Assembly: GCA_001915065.1 (NCBI GenBank)
Contig: MNDT01000005.1
Coordinates: forward strand, 1-37,067
Direction of reading: 5' to 3'
DNA: 37,067 nt
Origin: an archaeon 13_2_20CM_2_53_6
GTDB taxonomy: Archaea; Thermoproteota; Bathyarchaeia; 40CM-2-53-6
Positions 1 to 29,164 of this stretch are shown here, one piece after another (the stretch's first letter is position 1; each line of letters opens with the position of its first letter). The position numbers and the translations under genes were made by a program. Below the pieces are notes generated by a model. It saw only the letters and a program-made list of their open reading frames with translations, made no database searches and was not told where the DNA came from.

Positions 1-452
1 GTGGTAACTGGGTCCACAACAATTCTTTTGGCACCAATTTCCTTGACGCTTGTCTTTATCATCTCTATCAGAGTGGCCATCGAGAACTCTTTCCGGCCCA
101 CTGTGAGCTTTCCAACCTTTATCTCGGCAGGAAGATATCGTATTGGAGAAGCCTCTAGAAAAATCAGTTTCTTGTTACTCTCAAGTTCTCGGAAGTCCCA
201 TCCGAAGTCGAGCATTTCTTCGAACACGTGCTGCTTGTTCTCGTCGAGGCTGACGTAGATTCCTGGCTCCTCGTAGTCTAAGATCCCGTTCACGAGGAAT
301 TGTAAAGACAAGATTGTCTTTCCTGTGCCGGGGCCGCCAGAAAGGAGAATGGTCCTGTTCTTCGGCAGTCCCCCTGTAAGAAGCTTGTCCAGTCCAGGAA
401 TGCCTGTAGGTATCCTAGCGTTTGCTGACGAGTCAGCAGGGGCAGCGGCCAT
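1..452 (-). CDS. KaiC-like RecA-superfamily ATPase, N-terminal part (runs off left edge)
   Basis: The reverse strand encodes the first 150 residues of a KaiC-like P-loop ATPase; the rest lies outside the window. Visible are the family's entry motif TGIPGLDKLLTGGLP, a Walker A GGPGTGKT about 40 residues in, the following LSLQFLVNG helix, EEPGIYVSLDE, and a hydrophobic strand ending in RIVVDP that is the Walker B position. Archaeal KaiC-like proteins of this type are regarded as ATP-driven signalling hubs rather than clock proteins; the specific input and output here are unknown. The start is taken as the ATG at 452; an in-frame ATG at 512 would add 20 residues without homology. The gene is divergent from the TackOD1 gene at 606, so the roughly 150 bases between them should hold both promoters. 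The intact P-loop contrasts with the broken paralog at 27.7-28.4 kb. Confidence 0.85.
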   Translation of the reverse strand, partial: MAAAPADSSANARIPTGIPGLDKLLTGGLPKNRTILLSGGPGTGKTILSLQFLVNGILDYEEPGIYVSLDENKQHVFEEMLDFGWDFRELESNKKLIFLEASPIRYLPAEIKVGKLTVGRKEFSMATLIEMIKTSVKEIGAKRIVVDPVT

Positions 453-605
453 GAACCTTCGCAATGGGCCAGCGATGGCCCGATACCATATTCGTTCTGA
501 TACGCTGACCATCCTGAAGTGGATACATCGCACGAATATCCGTGAAGGAGCTCGATTCGTCCAACTCCGCGGAGTAGCCAAGGCCGGGGCCAGGCGTCTT
601 GAAGA

Positions 606-1616
606 GTGACATCGAAGGATAGAATGGCTCTGTATCAGGACCCTTCAGTTCAGCTACTGATAAGTAAGTTCGTGAGGGGAGAAATAGTCGAACTCACTCC
701 GGGCTTTGATCTCGACCACACGGTGAGATACCCAGAGGTCGAAGAGGTTGTCGACCAAGATCCAAATGCTGCTAAACAACTCGTCCAGAAGCTGTGGGAC
801 GCCGGAATCTTTAAGAGAAAATTTCACGAGAAGGTGCTCGTCTGTCCCTCCTGCCTATCCCCCAACGTCAGCAATGATTATGTCTGTCCAAACTGCAATT
901 CAATAGACATAGAGCGCAAGACTCTCCTTGAGCACACGGCTTGCGGAAACATTGACAGCGTCGACAACTTTCTTGTCGAAGGCAGTCTTCTCTGCCCAAA
1001 GTGCAACAAAGAGCTCGTCGAAGCAGGTGTTGACTATCAGAAACTTGGTGCCTGGTTTCAGTGCGCGCAGTGTGGAAAACGATCCGACATGCCCAGCCCC
1101 ATACATCGCTGCAGAAACTGTGGTCACATATTCACAATTAGAGACACCGGATTCGTCAATGTCTACGCGTACAGAGTGAGTTCTGAAGCGGAAGAAGAGT
1201 TCAAGCGGAGCTACCTTGTCATGAAGCCCATAGGCGTGGTCCTCGAAGACTTTCAGTTCAAAGTCGATATGCCCGGTCAAATAGCAGGCCGCTCGGGCGC
1301 TCTCCACCGGTTCGATGCAGTGGCGACAAAAGGCTCCTCGGAGGTCGTCGTGCTGGACGTTATCGCTAGTGACAAGGAGATTGACGAGGTCCCTGTCGCC
1401 TCGATGTACGCGAAGATCTTCGACGTGAGTCCCTCACAGTCGATTTTAGTCGCAATTCCCGGACTCAAAGACAAAGCGAAAAGGCTAGCCGCCCTCTACA
1501 GAATATCAATTGTCGAAGCCGAAAACTCCCAGCGAGCAGCCGACCAGATCAAAGACAAGTTCGGCTGGGCTGGATTGTCTGGTACCGACGAGTCTTTCGG
1601 CGATTTGCAGCTGTAA
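606..1616 (+). CDS. TackOD1-type multi-zinc-ribbon protein with a C-terminal restriction-endonuclease-like domain
   Basis: 336 residues from GTG at 606; an ATG at 624 is equally possible. Residues about 80-97 form a C4 zinc ribbon (C80, C83, C94, C97). Residues about 105-175 match the thaumarchaeal output domain TackOD1: LLEHxxCG with H110 and C113, CPKC at 130-133, GVDY, then CAQC at 153-156 and CRNC at 169-172. Residues about 215-308 look like a PD-(D/E)XK/Mrr-like fold (RFDAVA, then VVVLDVIAS, then a strand LVAIPG and helix KRLAALY). The usual catalytic (D/E)XK lysine is not evident, so this part is probably non-catalytic. TackOD1 is known as a predicted output domain in archaeal signalling proteins, which fits the neighbouring KaiC-like ATPase and 7TM sensor. 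The target (DNA, RNA or protein) is unknown. Confidence is high for TackOD1 and moderate for the nuclease-like fold. Confidence 0.75.
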   Translation: MTSKDRMALYQDPSVQLLISKFVRGEIVELTPGFDLDHTVRYPEVEEVVDQDPNAAKQLVQKLWDAGIFKRKFHEKVLVCPSCLSPNVSNDYVCPNCNSIDIERKTLLEHTACGNIDSVDNFLVEGSLLCPKCNKELVEAGVDYQKLGAWFQCAQCGKRSDMPSPIHRCRNCGHIFTIRDTGFVNVYAYRVSSEAEEEFKRSYLVMKPIGVVLEDFQFKVDMPGQIAGRSGALHRFDAVATKGSSEVVVLDVIASDKEIDEVPVASMYAKIFDVSPSQSILVAIPGLKDKAKRLAALYRISIVEAENSQRAADQIKDKFGWAGLSGTDESFGDLQL

Positions 1617-1690
1617 CCAGAGAAAGCATCTCAGAGTTCCATCATTCCCATCCCAGCGGTCAACTTTGCGCATACAAAGTTGAATCTTAC

Positions 1691-1885
1691 GTGCCACTAA
1701 GAGTCCGTCCTGTCAAACTGAGAGACAGTCTCTATCTGCTAATTCCAGTCGACATTGCACGACTTCTAGGAGTCGCCTCCTCATCGGATTTTCAGTTGAG
1801 CCTCAACGAGAACCAAGAGTCCGTCAGACTGGTCTACGAGCTCAAGAAGGAAGAAGCCCAGCGAAGCGACGACAAGAAAGGCTGA
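1691..1885 (+). CDS. Small AbrB/SpoVT-like protein
   Basis: 64 residues, GTG start. The pattern RPVKLRDSLYLLIPVDIARLLG, then a hydrophilic turn and a strand SVRLVYEL, resembles a single swapped-hairpin AbrB/MazE-type DNA-binding domain (strand with R/K, 'L-x-I-P', then a short helix with L-G). Such domains bind DNA as dimers in transcriptional regulators and antitoxins. No toxin gene is adjacent, so a regulator role is more likely. The stop codon lies 2 bases before the TTG start of the 7TM protein at 1888, so the two are probably translated from one message. The last 15 residues are charged (KKEEAQRSDDKKG) and probably disordered. Assignment is by pattern only, since very short domains match easily. 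Confidence 0.55.
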   Translation: MPLRVRPVKLRDSLYLLIPVDIARLLGVASSSDFQLSLNENQESVRLVYELKKEEAQRSDDKKG

Positions 1886-1887
1886 CT

Positions 1888-3777
1888 TTGGTCGAGGCGA
1901 CTTTCTTGAGCTACATTCCCGACCTTCTCGCGCTGATGGCTTCCTGTCTCGCGCTCTACTTCATCGTCCGCACGAAGAAAACATACTTTTTGGATTCTGG
2001 ATTCTTCATGGGAGTCGCGACGGTCGGATTCACCGTCTATCTGGCAGAGACGACTGTCTCGGACATCATCGGCAGACCGGTCTCAGCTCTCGCGGATACA
2101 TTACTGACTTCAATTATGGCTGTCTCAATAGGCATAGCCTCGTACCTCTTGAAGAACAGTGACCAGAAAACTCCTGGCGGAATCTCGGAACTGAAGAGAT
2201 TCATCTCCCGACCTCCTCTGCAATTTCTCGCCTATGCGATCGCAGTTTGTGCCTGGACCGCTGCAGCGCTGATCTCGCAACCCTGGACTCTGAATCAGAC
2301 AACCGCAGGAGGAACGATCTTCTATTACACATATCAGCTCTGGTTCGTAGCAGCTAGTGCTCTCCTCCTAGTCTCGTACATCGGACTCCCAGTAGTCTCA
2401 TTCTACCGCCAATCACGAATGGTGCGCGAGAAGACCGCATCTCTGTCCATCAAGATCATCAGCATTTGTTGGGCGACCTTCGGAGTGTCTCTATTCTTCC
2501 AGATTGCTGCAGGCGGATTCCTACTTCCAGAGTCTCAGAGCATCGGCTTTGTTGCAGATAGTCTTCTCTTCGTCCTTATTGCCTTCGCGCTTCGAGAACC
2601 AACTATTCTGGCAAGGATCATCACCTCCGGCGAAATAGTAAGCCAGGTCGTCAGTTCACATTCCGAAGTAGATGCCATAGTCCTGTACAACACGGAATCG
2701 GACCGAAGGAAGCTCGTTGAGACCTTCGTAATGGATGGACTATCGACGGGACAGGATGTTGTATGCCGTGTAACAAAGTCGGAGGTACCGTTCTACCGTG
2801 CAGTCCTGAAGAGTTCGGACTTGCCGGACGCGTCTGCCAGCAGGCGGCGCGTGACTATCCTACCCATCGAATTCGCACCGGCGCTTTCGTCGAACGTCTA
2901 TGACCAGAGCGATCTGTCGAGAAATCGTAGAGAACTGGTCGACCTCGACGATCTAAGCCTGGAACGAACTCAAGAGATCATTGGAAGCGTTACCGCTTCA
3001 GACGATGCATTTGGGAGAGAAAGAATTGGTCGGATATGGGCAATGAACGTGGAAGGTGCCCAAGCAGGAATACTCGACTTGCTAACTGCTCGGAACCCCA
3101 GATCCAGAGTCATAGACCTGGCTCGTCAACAGGATACCTTCTCGAATCTTCTCGGCCTAAAACATCATGGCATCTTGGGGACTAGACTGTTACTAGAGTA
3201 CGAGCCAACGAGCAACTATGAGGAGGTTGTTCAAAAGTTCGTTAAGGAGTTTCAGGCAAATGTCGAATCTGTGGCGATATTCACAAACGCGGGAAGCCCA
3301 GTATATCGCGAGTTCAGTGAGCAGAGGAACATCAGGCTCTTCAGCTTCAGTACAAAAACATCTACTCCCTCAAGAATCTCAAACGAACAAGTGCTCCTTC
3401 CAGAAAGGGACACGTCGCTACTACTGGACGCGGTTGACAAGCTGCTGCAAGCGCATACGGGACGGCGAATCGGGATAGTCTTTGAAGTATTCACTTCTCT
3501 CATAATCTCACTCGGATTTGAGAAAGCCTACGGGGTAATCTCATCAGTTGTGGAAATGGCCGAGTCTGAGCTGGCAACAATTCTGGTGCTTGTCAACTCT
3601 GAAGCGTTAGAGACGAGGACTCTCAGCGGAATCCGAGGCCTCTTTCAGTCGCAGCTATTCTTCAATTCCAGCGGACTCAAAGCTGTCAGACTCGCAGGGG
3701 AAGAATACGGGAAAGGAACACGCGCAACTGAATCGTTTTCAGGAGTTCAGGAGCCACCAAGGGGAATTGAGACTTGA
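1888..3777 (+). CDS. 7TM sensor-like protein with two degenerate MEDS/DUF835-like (KaiC-fold) modules
   Basis: 629 residues from TTG. The first 240 residues contain seven predicted membrane segments (about 6-26, 34-54, 66-87, 108-130, 144-172, 184-213, 217-239), like the 7TM input modules of archaeal and bacterial sensors. Two soluble segments follow, about 245-410 and 425-590. Each has a hydrophobic strand, a DR/helix segment and a late strand-helix pair (IGRIWAMNVEG; RRIGIVFEVFTSLIISLG) resembling the MEDS/DUF835 group of KaiC-like folds. I find no Walker A motif, so they are probably ligand- or partner-binding rather than ATPases. No histidine-kinase domain is present, so output must go through partners. 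The gene sits between the AbrB-like gene and the family X gene, whose TTG start at 3774 overlaps its stop. The role is inferred: a membrane receptor for the neighbouring KaiC-like system. Confidence 0.6.
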   Translation: MVEATFLSYIPDLLALMASCLALYFIVRTKKTYFLDSGFFMGVATVGFTVYLAETTVSDIIGRPVSALADTLLTSIMAVSIGIASYLLKNSDQKTPGGISELKRFISRPPLQFLAYAIAVCAWTAAALISQPWTLNQTTAGGTIFYYTYQLWFVAASALLLVSYIGLPVVSFYRQSRMVREKTASLSIKIISICWATFGVSLFFQIAAGGFLLPESQSIGFVADSLLFVLIAFALREPTILARIITSGEIVSQVVSSHSEVDAIVLYNTESDRRKLVETFVMDGLSTGQDVVCRVTKSEVPFYRAVLKSSDLPDASASRRRVTILPIEFAPALSSNVYDQSDLSRNRRELVDLDDLSLERTQEIIGSVTASDDAFGRERIGRIWAMNVEGAQAGILDLLTARNPRSRVIDLARQQDTFSNLLGLKHHGILGTRLLLEYEPTSNYEEVVQKFVKEFQANVESVAIFTNAGSPVYREFSEQRNIRLFSFSTKTSTPSRISNEQVLLPERDTSLLLDAVDKLLQAHTGRRIGIVFEVFTSLIISLGFEKAYGVISSVVEMAESELATILVLVNSEALETRTLSGIRGLFQSQLFFNSSGLKAVRLAGEEYGKGTRATESFSGVQEPPRGIET

Positions 3778-4154
3778 GCGGGCGATCCCTATCCTTCCCT
3801 CAGCTTCTCTTGGAGTCGATCGACGAGGGACTCTCAGTACTGGGCAACGAGCCCCGAGAAGCAGTGTACCAGTTCCTAAGGACAATATGCTCTCTCCATC
3901 GCGAGGATATTCCAGATCATGTTCCAGAATTTGCGGCTGGGCTCAAGAGAGCATTGGGAGGAGCCTCCAAGGTGATCGAACGTCTGATCCTGAGAAGACT
4001 CTTCGAAAAGACCGGTTCAAGCTTCAGAGATGTGCCCGATACGGACTTCAACGAATATGTACTAGATGCGAAGCGGAGATTCGAGATAGTCTCGCACCGA
4101 CACGAGGACCCAGCTGAAGGTGCTCGGTCAAAGAAGGGGCAGGTCTCCAGTTAG
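3774..4154 (+). CDS. Small helical protein, family X copy 1 (function unknown)
   Basis: 126 residues, TTG start overlapping the stop of the 7TM gene by 4 bases, so translationally coupled. I do not recognise a named domain. The protein is helical, with the core LLLESIDEGLSVLG, then an F...L helix, LGGASKVIERLILRRLFEK and an aromatic FNEYV segment. The same order (short helix, 'LG', a second helix ending in an F/L stretch, 'xGxAxxxxxxxIxxxLYxK', then a charged tail) is seen in the proteins at 26428-26838 and 27014-27430, so the three look like paralogs. Two of those are in the region of a KaiC-like gene and this one ends the KaiC/TackOD1/7TM region. It could be a small adaptor or DNA-binding partner; nothing in the sequence decides. 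Its 3' end overlaps the convergent pth2 gene by 27 bases. Confidence 0.6.
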   Translation: MSGRSLSFPQLLLESIDEGLSVLGNEPREAVYQFLRTICSLHREDIPDHVPEFAAGLKRALGGASKVIERLILRRLFEKTGSSFRDVPDTDFNEYVLDAKRRFEIVSHRHEDPAEGARSKKGQVSS

Positions 4155-26427: not shown

Positions 26428-26838
26428 TCATCGTGTCGCAACGTAGATCGAGTCGTCGACACTGGGAGAATGTCTCGGCTTCAAAAGATCACTGATCACC
26501 TTTTCCTTCAATAGAGAGACTTTGTCTCTTAGAGAATCGTAGAAGCCGAAGCCCGGTCTGAGAGAATACTCCTCGTATAGTGATGCTACTGTCTTGTAGA
26601 CTAGAACTCTCGCTGAGCTCCCAAAGCTGTGCGTGAGGATCTCCACGACTTCATCGAACCTTAGCGCAATCTCTCGCGGTGGGATCCCGTTCCTTTCCAG
26701 TAGCCGGCATACCTCGCTGGTGACAGCAGAGCCCAGCATGTCTCGGACGGTCCTGATGAAGCACTCGCTCATCGTGGACTGAAACGTCTCTACTAACGAC
26801 GTGCGCACTGAAAAGTCCCCATTGGGAAAGACTTGCAT
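26428..26838 (-). CDS. Small helical protein, family X copy 2
   Basis: 136 residues, ATG start at 26838. Not a named family. It shares the architecture of the proteins at 3774 and 27014: a first helix region (CFIRTVRDMLGSAVTSEVC), then FDEVVEILTHSFGSSARVLVYKTVASLYEEY, then an aromatic and charged end. It is divergent from copy 3 at 27014; a palindrome lies between their starts. The charged tail is longer here (SDLLKPRHSPSVDDSIY). Being paired head-to-head with another member suggests the two products act together. Confidence 0.6.
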   Translation of the reverse strand: MQVFPNGDFSVRTSLVETFQSTMSECFIRTVRDMLGSAVTSEVCRLLERNGIPPREIALRFDEVVEILTHSFGSSARVLVYKTVASLYEEYSLRPGFGFYDSLRDKVSLLKEKVISDLLKPRHSPSVDDSIYVATR

Positions 26839-26909
26839 TTCCTCGCCCGATTAGGCATGGTGTAACAATGTCCTGCCGAAAACGGGAACCACTACGAGCC
26901 CGAGTCTCC

Positions 26910-26926
26910 CCTGGTTAATAACTAGG
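26910..26926. promoter_or_regulatory. Near-perfect palindrome between divergent family X genes
   Basis: CCTGGTTA-A-TAACTAGG: two 8-base arms around a central A with a single mismatch. Its core GTTAATAAC also reads as a TATA-like box on either strand. It sits in the 175-base divergent gap between starts at 26838 and 27014, so it is a natural site for a dimeric regulator such as the winged-helix protein encoded at 27427. Confidence 0.4.
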
Positions 26927-27013
26927 CATCAGGGCTCGCACAGCCTACAAGAAATGAGACAATGCTCCTAGTCCTCGAGTTACAGTCAGCTAATCCGGAG
27001 GCACGCACGTCGG

Positions 27014-27430
27014 ATGGCCATAAGGGTCTCTTTGGTGGTTGAGACGAGCTCCCCGAGCATAGCGCGGTCCCCCACTTACGAAATGCGAGCTCAAAGCCTA
27101 ATTAGAGAAAGCGCGAAGCTCGCTGACGAGAAGGCGTTCGCTTCCCTACTGACTGACAGCATCCGAGAGTCGATTGAAGACACCCTAGGCAAGAACGTCC
27201 TCGCGCTCCTAGTATCAAAGGGACTGCTGGACGACGCGCAGAATCCGAGAGAGCTGGAGAGACAACTCAACTCCACATTCGGGAACGCGTCCGCAGTTCT
27301 AGAAAGGATCATCGTGAAAGGGCTCTACCAGAAACTACGGATACCCTTCGATTCAAACCTCAGTTTCGATTACGCTAAAGCCTTGGAAGTGGCAAGAAAC
27401 GTCCAGCTCGTGGAGAGTAGGCGCAAATGA
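27014..27430 (+). CDS. Small helical protein, family X copy 3
   Basis: 138 residues, ATG start (an internal ATG at 27083 is possible). Core order: FASLLTDSIRESIEDTLG, then LERQLNSTFGNASAVLERII, then VKGLYQKL and an FDYAKALEVARN tail. The segment FGNASAVLERIIVKGLYQKL is very like GGASKVIERLILRRLFEK of copy 1, the best evidence of common descent. The stop overlaps the ATG of the wHTH gene by 4 bases, which starts a tight four-gene run: family X, wHTH, KaiC-like remnant, membrane protein. Confidence 0.62.
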   Translation: MAIRVSLVVETSSPSIARSPTYEMRAQSLIRESAKLADEKAFASLLTDSIRESIEDTLGKNVLALLVSKGLLDDAQNPRELERQLNSTFGNASAVLERIIVKGLYQKLRIPFDSNLSFDYAKALEVARNVQLVESRRK

Positions 27431-27726
27431 GCGAAGCCCAACAGGTTATTGCCACGCTATTATCATCGCAAGTCAGAGGAGAACTCTTGGTTCTGTTCCA
27501 TAGAAATTCGGGGTTAGTAGATACCGTCGACGGCGTCGCTCGTCGAATAGGCAGAACGGGGTTCGCAATCGAGAATGACGTTCGGGACCTGGTGAAACTC
27601 GGCGTCCTAAAGACGAAGAAGATTGGCAGTTCGGAGGTCATACTCCTCGACCGAGCTAGAGATCGAGAAGTTCTCGAAACCGTTGCGAACCATATCAAGA
27701 GCGTCAACAGGAGCGAGCAAAATTGA
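27427..27726 (+). CDS. Winged-helix transcription regulator (ArsR-like)
   Basis: 99 residues, ATG overlapping the previous stop. A single wHTH: helix QQVIATLLSSQVRGELLVLF, HTH region VDGVARRIGRTGFAIENDVR, then DLVKLGVLKTKKIGSSEVI forming the wing with two strands, and a C-terminal helix for dimerization. The archaeal ArsR/MarR-like short regulators have this size. The gene overlaps both neighbours, so it is part of the KaiC-associated operon; self-regulation through the palindrome at 26910 is a reasonable guess. Confidence 0.7.
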   Translation: MSEAQQVIATLLSSQVRGELLVLFHRNSGLVDTVDGVARRIGRTGFAIENDVRDLVKLGVLKTKKIGSSEVILLDRARDREVLETVANHIKSVNRSEQN

Positions 27727-28416
27727 CATCACCAGCTTCAAGGACACGAGCCTCTGAGTTCGAACACCAATTCATCGGCAGGACAAGAGAGGGCGCACGG
27801 GTCAAGACCGGAATAGCAGAGCTTGACGAGATGCTACGGGGTGGCTTCATGGAAGGAGACGCGGTTCTCGTGGCCGGTAGCGCGGGCTCGGGTAAGACAA
27901 CCCTCGCACTCCAATACCTTGTTAACGGGATCGTCAAATTCGGCGAACCCGGAATCTACTTGACATTCGAACAGATGCCGGACCAGACGAATAGTGATTG
28001 ACTCGCTGAGTCATCTGGAAATGTTCGTGGCTAAGGGAGACTTGAGGAAGGAGGCCTACCGGCTGGTCAGCTTCCTCAAGACGAAAGGCATGAGCTCTCT
28101 ACTGATCTGGGAAGCGGGCCAGATGAGTGGAAACTCGTTCAGCGTAACAGAAGTAGGGCTGAGCTTCCTCGTCGACTGCATCGTCGCGCTCAAACCAGTC
28201 GAGATCGAGTCCGCAGTGCGCAAAGCCTTGGTGATATTGAAAATGCGAGGGAGCGACCACGACAAGCAGCTCAGACAGTTCGAGATAACCCCCGCAGGCA
28301 TCAAGATAGAATCGGCCTTCTCAAACTATGAGGGCGTGATGACAGGCTCTCCCAGAAGGGTTGGGTCAGAGAAGTTCATGGAAATGTTCCGCGGAGCCTC
28401 GGAGAAGCACAAGTGA
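27723..28416 (+). pseudogene. KaiC-like ATPase with internal deletion and frameshift
   Basis: Two frames joined by a break make one KaiC-like gene. The first (27723-28001, 92 residues) has TGIAELDEMLRGGFMEGDAV, Walker A GSAGSGKTT, and PGIYLTFEQMPDQ. It then ends TNSD-stop. The second frame resumes at RRIVIDSLSHLEMFV (Walker B) around 27985 and runs to 28416 with KTKGMSSLLIWEAG, FLVDCIVAL, VILKMRGSDHDKQLRQFEI. In the intact paralog at the left edge about 70 residues separate these two points; here they are fused directly and out of frame. So about 70 codons are missing plus a frame change, and no whole ATPase can be made. A sequencing or assembly error, or a recent deletion, are the options. 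Confidence 0.75.
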
Positions 28417-28428
28417 GGAGATGAGAAG

Positions 28429-28773
28429 ATGCTCGACCCTATCGTAATTCCAACCCTCTACTTCATCACAATCTTCCAGCTGATACTACAGGCAGCCGTC
28501 TTCTACTACGCTTACCGGGTGACAAAAATGACCGGGTCTTTTCGCGCCTGGACCCTCATCATTCTCGCCTTTGCTCTCCTAACTGTCAGAAATGTGGTGT
28601 CCCTCATCCTCACGCTCTCCCTCCCAGCCAATCAAGTGTCCTCTCTGATAGAGTCGGTCGGAGCTACCACCACAATTCTCAGCTCTGCCATCAACGTTGC
28701 AGCTTCTATCGCACTGTTCCTCGGAATGTTTGGTCTTGTCAGGAGATTCCAAAGCCAACCCAAAGCTCCCTAA
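28429..28773 (+). CDS. Small three-helix membrane protein, unknown
   Basis: 114 residues, ATG with GAGGAGATGAGAAG just upstream acting as ribosome-binding site. Three predicted membrane segments (about 5-27, 40-62, 79-104) and a short basic cytoplasmic end (RRFQSQPK). No family recognised. It is 12 bases after the KaiC-like remnant and so belongs to the same transcription unit; it could be the membrane anchor or sensor of that module. Confidence 0.6.
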   Translation: MLDPIVIPTLYFITIFQLILQAAVFYYAYRVTKMTGSFRAWTLIILAFALLTVRNVVSLILTLSLPANQVSSLIESVGATTTILSSAINVAASIALFLGMFGLVRRFQSQPKAP

Positions 28774-28864
28774 GACGGAGACCCAATCGTCTCCGGACAA
28801 AGGAGGAGTCGACCGGTTCATTGAGCTATTCATGAAAAGCGTCAAGACTCGGAAAGGTAAGTAG
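28736..28864 (+). CDS. Possible very small protein overlapping the membrane protein end
   Basis: 42 codons from TTG 28736 (an earlier TTG at 28730 is also in frame), stopping right before the ATG at 28865. The composition is protein-like towards the end (VDRFIELFMKSVKTRKGK), and AAAGGAGGA inside could serve a start further on. It overlaps the membrane protein gene in another frame and contains a hairpin, so it may equally be non-coding leader. Confidence 0.25.
   Translation: MSGDSKANPKLPKTETQSSPDKGGVDRFIELFMKSVKTRKGK
28776..28795 (+). repeat. Perfect 7-base hairpin just after the membrane protein stop
   Basis: CGGAGAC-CCAATC-GTCTCCG, stem of 7 and loop of 6, starting 2 bases after the stop codon. 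No T-run follows. Possibly a processing or stability element between the membrane protein and the downstream helical protein. Confidence 0.5.
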
Positions 28865-29164
28865 ATGGGGAAGAAACCTGAACAGCCCCAGCTTGAGAGA
28901 GCGGAAAAGACTCTGCTGGCTATCAAGGAGTTCAAGCGGTACCTGGACGGAATGGAGAAGGACCTCAGCCGTACGTCAAAGAAACTCTCGAACAGAGAGG
29001 TCGCTCAGAGCGTCGGATTCGTAGCCACCGGAATCCACGAAGCGCTCAACTACCTGGCGATAGTTAAGAAAGTAATTGAGAAGACCGAGCGTATCGTTTC
29101 CAAAAGAAATATTTCCTCTCCCGGTGGAACTGACGCGTCTCCCGAGCCGCGGACTAATCTATAG
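28865..29164 (+). CDS. Small helical charged protein, unknown
   Basis: 99 residues, ATG start. Mostly helix, with coiled-coil-like spacing (RAEKTLLAIKEFKRYLDGME, KDLSRTSKKL) and a second helix SVGFVATGIHEALNYLAIVK. Strongly basic overall, disordered end. Not recognised. As the last gene of the KaiC-associated run it may be a partner protein. Followed by overlapping inverted repeats. Confidence 0.5.
   Translation: MGKKPEQPQLERAEKTLLAIKEFKRYLDGMEKDLSRTSKKLSNREVAQSVGFVATGIHEALNYLAIVKKVIEKTERIVSKRNISSPGGTDASPEPRTNL

Follow-up and report, generated by a model that had tools for sequence, protein, structure and literature searches.

Family X, a set of small helical proteins encoded beside KaiC-type ATPases, constitutes, as far as profiles and a structural model indicate, a divergent Bathyarchaeal branch of NitrOD5 (PF11537), and its members are probably five-helix, plug-in protein-protein adaptors of about 90-110 residues that are used with KaiC in two separate modules of the DNA described here. 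KaiC-type ATPases are proposed to be the main signalling hubs of archaea; to our knowledge, however, their wiring to inputs and outputs has hardly been tested. The window, that is, the whole stretch of DNA analysed, corresponds to the first 37,067 bases of a contig of 68,202 bp (C63) in an assembly of 1.79 Mb that is 80% complete, and the nearest named records with the same X1 locus are Candidatus Bathyarchaeota MAGs. The genome, that of a soil archaeon, contains 27 KaiC-domain matches and nine family X matches. Two family X modules lie in the window, at 1-4.2 kb and 26.4-28.8 kb, both with KaiC-type ATPases (Table 1). The first-pass annotation, made by reading the window, had reported that the same family recurs at both KaiC loci, and this holds: the genes that it named are present as open reading frames, X1 in the first module and X2 and X3 in the second.

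Table 1. Genes of the two family X modules of the window, and histidine kinase loci in other genomes.
Feature	Position	Strand	Basis or remark
KaiC-like ATPase, truncated at the contig edge, transcribed divergently from the TackOD1 run	3..581	-	PF06745, E=1.3e-42
TackOD1 protein	606..1616	+	PF18551, E=6.4e-37
AbrB-like small protein, position conserved	1691..1885	+	label from reading the sequence only
Membrane sensor, MEDS/DUF835-like (inactivated-KaiC-type) cytoplasmic region	1888..3777	+	sub-threshold matches
X1, stand-alone NitrOD5-type, 126 aa	3774..4154	+	profile iteration, AF2, Foldseek
X2, divergent stand-alone NitrOD5-type, 136 aa	26428..26838	-	profile iteration; orthologues of the genus at the same position
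X3, stand-alone NitrOD5-type, 138 aa, heading the operon	27014..27430	+	profile iteration, synteny
Winged-helix regulator (wHTH)	27427..27726	+	weak HVO_A0114 match (PF25212), below cut-off
KaiC-like ATPase, N-terminal fragment, Walker A	27723..28001	+	PF06745, E=2.9e-22
KaiC-like ATPase, C-terminal fragment, Walker B, other frame	27994..28416	+	PF06745, E=2.8e-17
TM4, small membrane protein, conserved last gene of the module	28429..28773	+	orthologues across the genus
Small helical protein	28865..29164	+	adjoins the module in the closest relative, G007 (L062), only
Domain-histidine kinase fusions or direct neighbours	L276:6028-9627, L277:2321-5434, L278:4805-7579; L279-L288

The arrangement of the first module, KaiC<-->TackOD1-AbrB-7TM-X1, is conserved in more than a dozen genomes of the genus. 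From the gene set proposed earlier for positions 1-4154, KaiC and TackOD1 are confirmed, the former as a gene truncated by the contig edge and divergent to the others (its orthologue in the sister genome G007 is intact, with 258 aa), while the AbrB-like label stands on a protein whose orthologue has no Pfam match. The protein that had been read as a 7TM sensor yields only sub-threshold matches, to MEDS (E=0.005) and DUF835 (E=9e-4), both in its cytoplasmic half. Type IV pili were considered as a possible connection of the X1 locus and rejected: in a relative the flanking genes encode a malic enzyme, a polyprenyl synthase and a GTPase, and in the window a proteasome subunit is encoded on the opposite side of the locus.

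The second module, X2<-->X3-wHTH-KaiC-TM4, is common to about a dozen genomes of the genus. X2 is oriented head-to-head with X3, whose gene overlaps that of the wHTH protein by 4 bases. The KaiC-like neighbour that had been described at 26428-29164 is identified by PF06745 on each of two fragments, and the wHTH neighbour is confirmed just weakly, by a match to PF25212 that stays below the cut-off. The window's wHTH is also homologous to the N-terminal domain of a KaiC fusion of 345 aa encoded at the X1 locus of another genome (G017, L269:8627-9661).

Profile searches, which had been recommended as the means of probing common descent, detect homology of the three proteins. The family has many members in relatives, and iteration seeded with X1, X2 or X3 retrieves an identical set of 81 among 3098 open reading frames of relatives (E<=1e-5), and the clade profiles of X2 and X3 match X1 with E=1.6e-10 and E=6.8e-12, respectively. 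Pairwise alignment agrees for X1 and X3, with a score of 69 against 27.5 +/- 4.8 for shuffled sequences, none of 1000 shuffles reaching it, and similarity is fair between X2 and X3 (4 of 1000 shuffles). Judged by these comparisons, X1, X2 and X3 are homologous and form one family. Were they instead unrelated short helical proteins, alike by composition, one would expect results such as the alignment of X1 with X2, which is not significant (84 of 1000 shuffles reach its score), and the direct comparison of the X2 and X3 clade profiles, which attains only E=0.002; however, three independent profile searches reach one set, and the matches of X2 and of X3 to X1 both attain an E-value of about 1e-10 or better, which refutes this reading and leaves it hardly any credence. 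The G-x-A...L-Y/F-x-K block previously described as shared by the family is found in X1 and X3 but is not strict in X2 (GSSA...LYEE). In X3, the stretch of core that separates the first conserved LG from the FG motif is incomplete, and most of one core helix is absent. Purifying selection is seen, with dN/dS values of 0.04-0.37.

The label "unknown", under which the family was first filed, can be replaced, since family X corresponds to a divergent form of NitrOD5, a named but little-studied domain. Searches of the window proteins and the window's own genome against Pfam and NCBIfam, and direct single-sequence searches with PF11537, return no identity for family X, so that profiles are needed. 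PF11537 matches 7 of 55 family members, all sub-threshold (best E=9e-5), and its curated cut-off of 27 bits, a conservative annotation threshold, is not reached by family X; two REC proteins (L127, L131) encoded in other families of this phylum themselves score just 20-21 bits against PF11537. Both are confirmed to carry REC-NitrOD5 domains and are found by the family X profile with E-values of 2e-8 and 4e-7, and hhalign gives 82-88% for family X against REC-NitrOD5. Among solved structures, the family X profile has one clear match, PDB 2p9x/PH0832 from Pyrococcus horikoshii (E=1.4e-6), the sequence of which matches PF11537 with E=1.3e-35. The AlphaFold2 model of X1 consists of five helices (pLDDT 89.7, pTM 0.78), and its best Foldseek match is also 2p9x (probability 1.00, TM 0.63/0.79 and 0.64/0.82, rmsd 2.2-2.8). 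With the X3 model (pLDDT 82.7) Foldseek gives no such match, the likely reason being that a portion of the X3 core is missing. The profile matches to NitrOD5 members, together with the fold match of X1, argue that family X is a divergent NitrOD5 branch; as homology is detected below the Pfam cut-off, the assignment is limited to a divergent branch of the NitrOD5 superfamily.

Like NitrOD5 proper (PH0832/2p9x and the REC-NitrOD5 proteins of Nitrosopumilus), family X has a five-helix fold, reciprocal profile matches, a stand-alone, multi-copy habit and a signalling context. It differs in scoring below the Pfam cut-off and in being partnered by KaiC operons here and by PAS histidine kinases elsewhere in Bathyarchaeia. 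According to Galperin et al. (2018, PMC5847659), NitrOD5 occurs stand-alone or fused to REC, in several copies per genome, and these are the only two architectures given in the table of that paper. The same authors place NitrOD2/4/5 in a "Death domain-like" family of archaea, with reference to Makarova et al. (2017, mBio 8:e01959-17). The X1 model, with five helices, is unlike the six-helix DEATH fold, and there is no DEATH-fold entry in the best 50 of the 144 and 225 PDB matches of the two models, for which reason family X is not filed as a DEATH domain. Makarova, Galperin and Koonin reportedly proposed in 2017 that "Death domain-like" domains serve as adaptors in KaiC networks. Family X resembles those adaptors in that NitrOD2/4/5 belong to the group and in that KaiC ATPases are the proposed hubs; because KaiC-linked adaptors had already been put forward, family X is to be seen as a new branch of something known.

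Tabulating the neighbours of homologues, another step recommended at the outset, reveals enrichment next to KaiC in other genomes. Across 14 genomes, a KaiC domain is listed no more than 1.5 kb away for at least 29 of the 88 copies of family X, compared with at least about 2.3 expected from KaiC density, and for strong family X matches the figure is at least 28 of 55 against at least 1.4 expected, counts that are not independent because the genomes are related. The other 59 copies have no KaiC within 1.5 kb among the matches listed, and the same is true, among the matches listed, of the weaker paralogues in the window's own genome (contigs C22, C29 and C13). Other families of the class have an X1-like gene placed 0-77 bp after, and co-oriented with, a gene for a KaiC of ~475 aa with a GvpD_bR2-like second half. 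This partner recalls the GvpD-type KaiC regulators, which the window's own single-domain KaiCs do not. Family X and KaiC are joined in one protein of 592 aa from a distantly related genome within the phylum (G076), which has the architecture NitrOD5-KaiC-GvpD_bR2-like, with the family X domain at the N-terminus (L237:5097-6872). The domain is also seen in large open reading frames of 550-756 aa (L219:2559-4208, L220:913-3180, L221:3056-4768), which have no Pfam matches at E<=0.01 and no PADLOC matches. An NLR/STAND defence function for large genes that adjoin family X elsewhere was considered and rejected, as these encode PAS/GAF histidine kinases and have no PADLOC match.

KaiC is not the only partner. 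Other Bathyarchaeal families have a NitrOD5-type domain fused to, or encoded directly upstream of, PAS/GAF histidine kinases (Table 1): NitrOD5-PAS-histidine kinase fusions occur in three genomes, and the domain is located directly upstream of PAS histidine kinases in about ten, often as a tandem pair. When the partner of the best family X copy, defined as a co-oriented gene less than 500 bp away, was scored in a sample of 30 genomes across the phylum, it was KaiC in 8 and a histidine kinase or PAS protein in 10; the remaining 12 had neither, and two of those have an X1 type of locus with KaiC 3 kb off. Histidine kinase partners are as common as KaiC outside the window's genus. The domain could on this basis be mainly a dimerisation or coupling module of two-component histidine kinases, with its KaiC links a lineage-specific side branch, as suggested by the kinase arrangement in 10 of the 30 genomes and about 10 named Bathyarchaeota records and by the presence of REC-NitrOD5 in Thaumarchaea. 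This seems unlikely, since copies linked to KaiC occur in many families (f1-f6, f9, f12, f40), lie equally near their partner (0-77 bp, co-oriented) and include one fusion, and in a tree of 66 sequences, the root of which is not fixed, the kinase-linked copies form a single group among them. This group is one side of a branch with an SH-aLRT of 97, and the KaiC/histidine kinase label requires one change on the tree, the shuffled mean for the kinase label being 19.7. It follows that the type of partner is inherited and stable. The preferred reading, that of a plug-in adaptor, might be widened, as a tentative proposal somewhat short of an even chance, to one family that plugs into both KaiC hubs and PAS histidine kinases, with paralogue clades for each partner, so physically joining the KaiC network to two-component signalling.

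The idea of a KaiC-linked adaptor with which the analysis began is supported by the enrichment and by the fusions to KaiC, histidine kinases and REC, and the family now has a name and a fold. Neither of the two outcomes named beforehand as refuting it was observed, since the three proteins prove homologous and their homologues elsewhere are enriched next to KaiC genes. It has to accommodate the existence of other partners and a KaiC copy that is broken in the window. The sequence at 27723-28416, initially taken as one whole gene, is in two fragments: compared with G007 (L062), where the homologue is intact (282 aa), it has a 149-bp deletion at a 5-bp CCAGA direct repeat and a frameshift. Walker A and Walker B are both present but in two frames, and the assembled sequence encodes no intact RecA-type ATPase. 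Non-synonymous differences in the fragments are few (dN 0.016 and 0.053), as expected of either a very recent break or an artefact. That the deletion arose in assembly and the module is in fact whole, which would be compatible with the adaptor reading, is rather unlikely, although it deserves some weight: the genome is metagenome-assembled and 80% complete, and the deletion flanks are closely similar to the intact sister copy, but a join of 5 bp is too short to have caused a k-mer collapse and is what a genuine deletion by microhomology typically shows. Relative to G007, synonymous divergence varies along the window, amounting to 0.08-0.14 for X1 (3774-4151), X2 and X3 (26431-27427) and TackOD1 and to 0.36-0.54 for wHTH, the C-terminal part of KaiC and the small helical protein (27427-29161); recombination may be the cause.

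Two relatives have decayed second modules (L226:4301-5859, L227:4221-5332), in which X2 and KaiC are reduced to fragments and X3 and wHTH remain open. As KaiC is lost and X3 and wHTH are kept, this pair may be able to act without KaiC. Taken further, X2/X3 and wHTH would make up a transcriptional switch independent of KaiC, with the X proteins as co-regulators of wHTH and KaiC dispensable; the broken gene of the window, the intact X3 and wHTH of the decayed copies and the 4-base overlap of the two genes are all in keeping with this. Yet most of the genus has a full-length KaiC, and the two fragments have few non-synonymous differences, as a recent break would leave, making such a switch distinctly improbable.

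The adaptor reading leads to a possible scheme for both modules. The X proteins would dock on KaiC, or on the sensory part of a kinase, at a face that depends on nucleotide or signal, and pass the state of KaiC or of the kinase onward. At 26.4-28.8 kb, TM4 (as input) and the X adaptors would most likely set the ATP-dependent state of KaiC, which in turn would hand this state to the wHTH transcription regulator (as output). At 1-4.2 kb, X1 may link the membrane sensor with its inactivated KaiC-like domains (as input) and TackOD1 to the neighbouring KaiC. Homology, the fold match to 2p9x, synteny, enrichment and fusions are observed; physical contact between X and KaiC, the direction of signal flow and control of wHTH are inferred.

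The core of this idea is anticipated in the literature, and the histidine kinase and KaiC fusions are newer relative to the 2018 table (PMC5847659). The combination of a small soluble adaptor family, a relative of solved structure (2p9x), fusions with KaiC and histidine kinases and a conserved module that includes a transcription regulator makes it possible to test the wiring of KaiC on recombinant proteins, which would have about 130, 100 and 280 residues.
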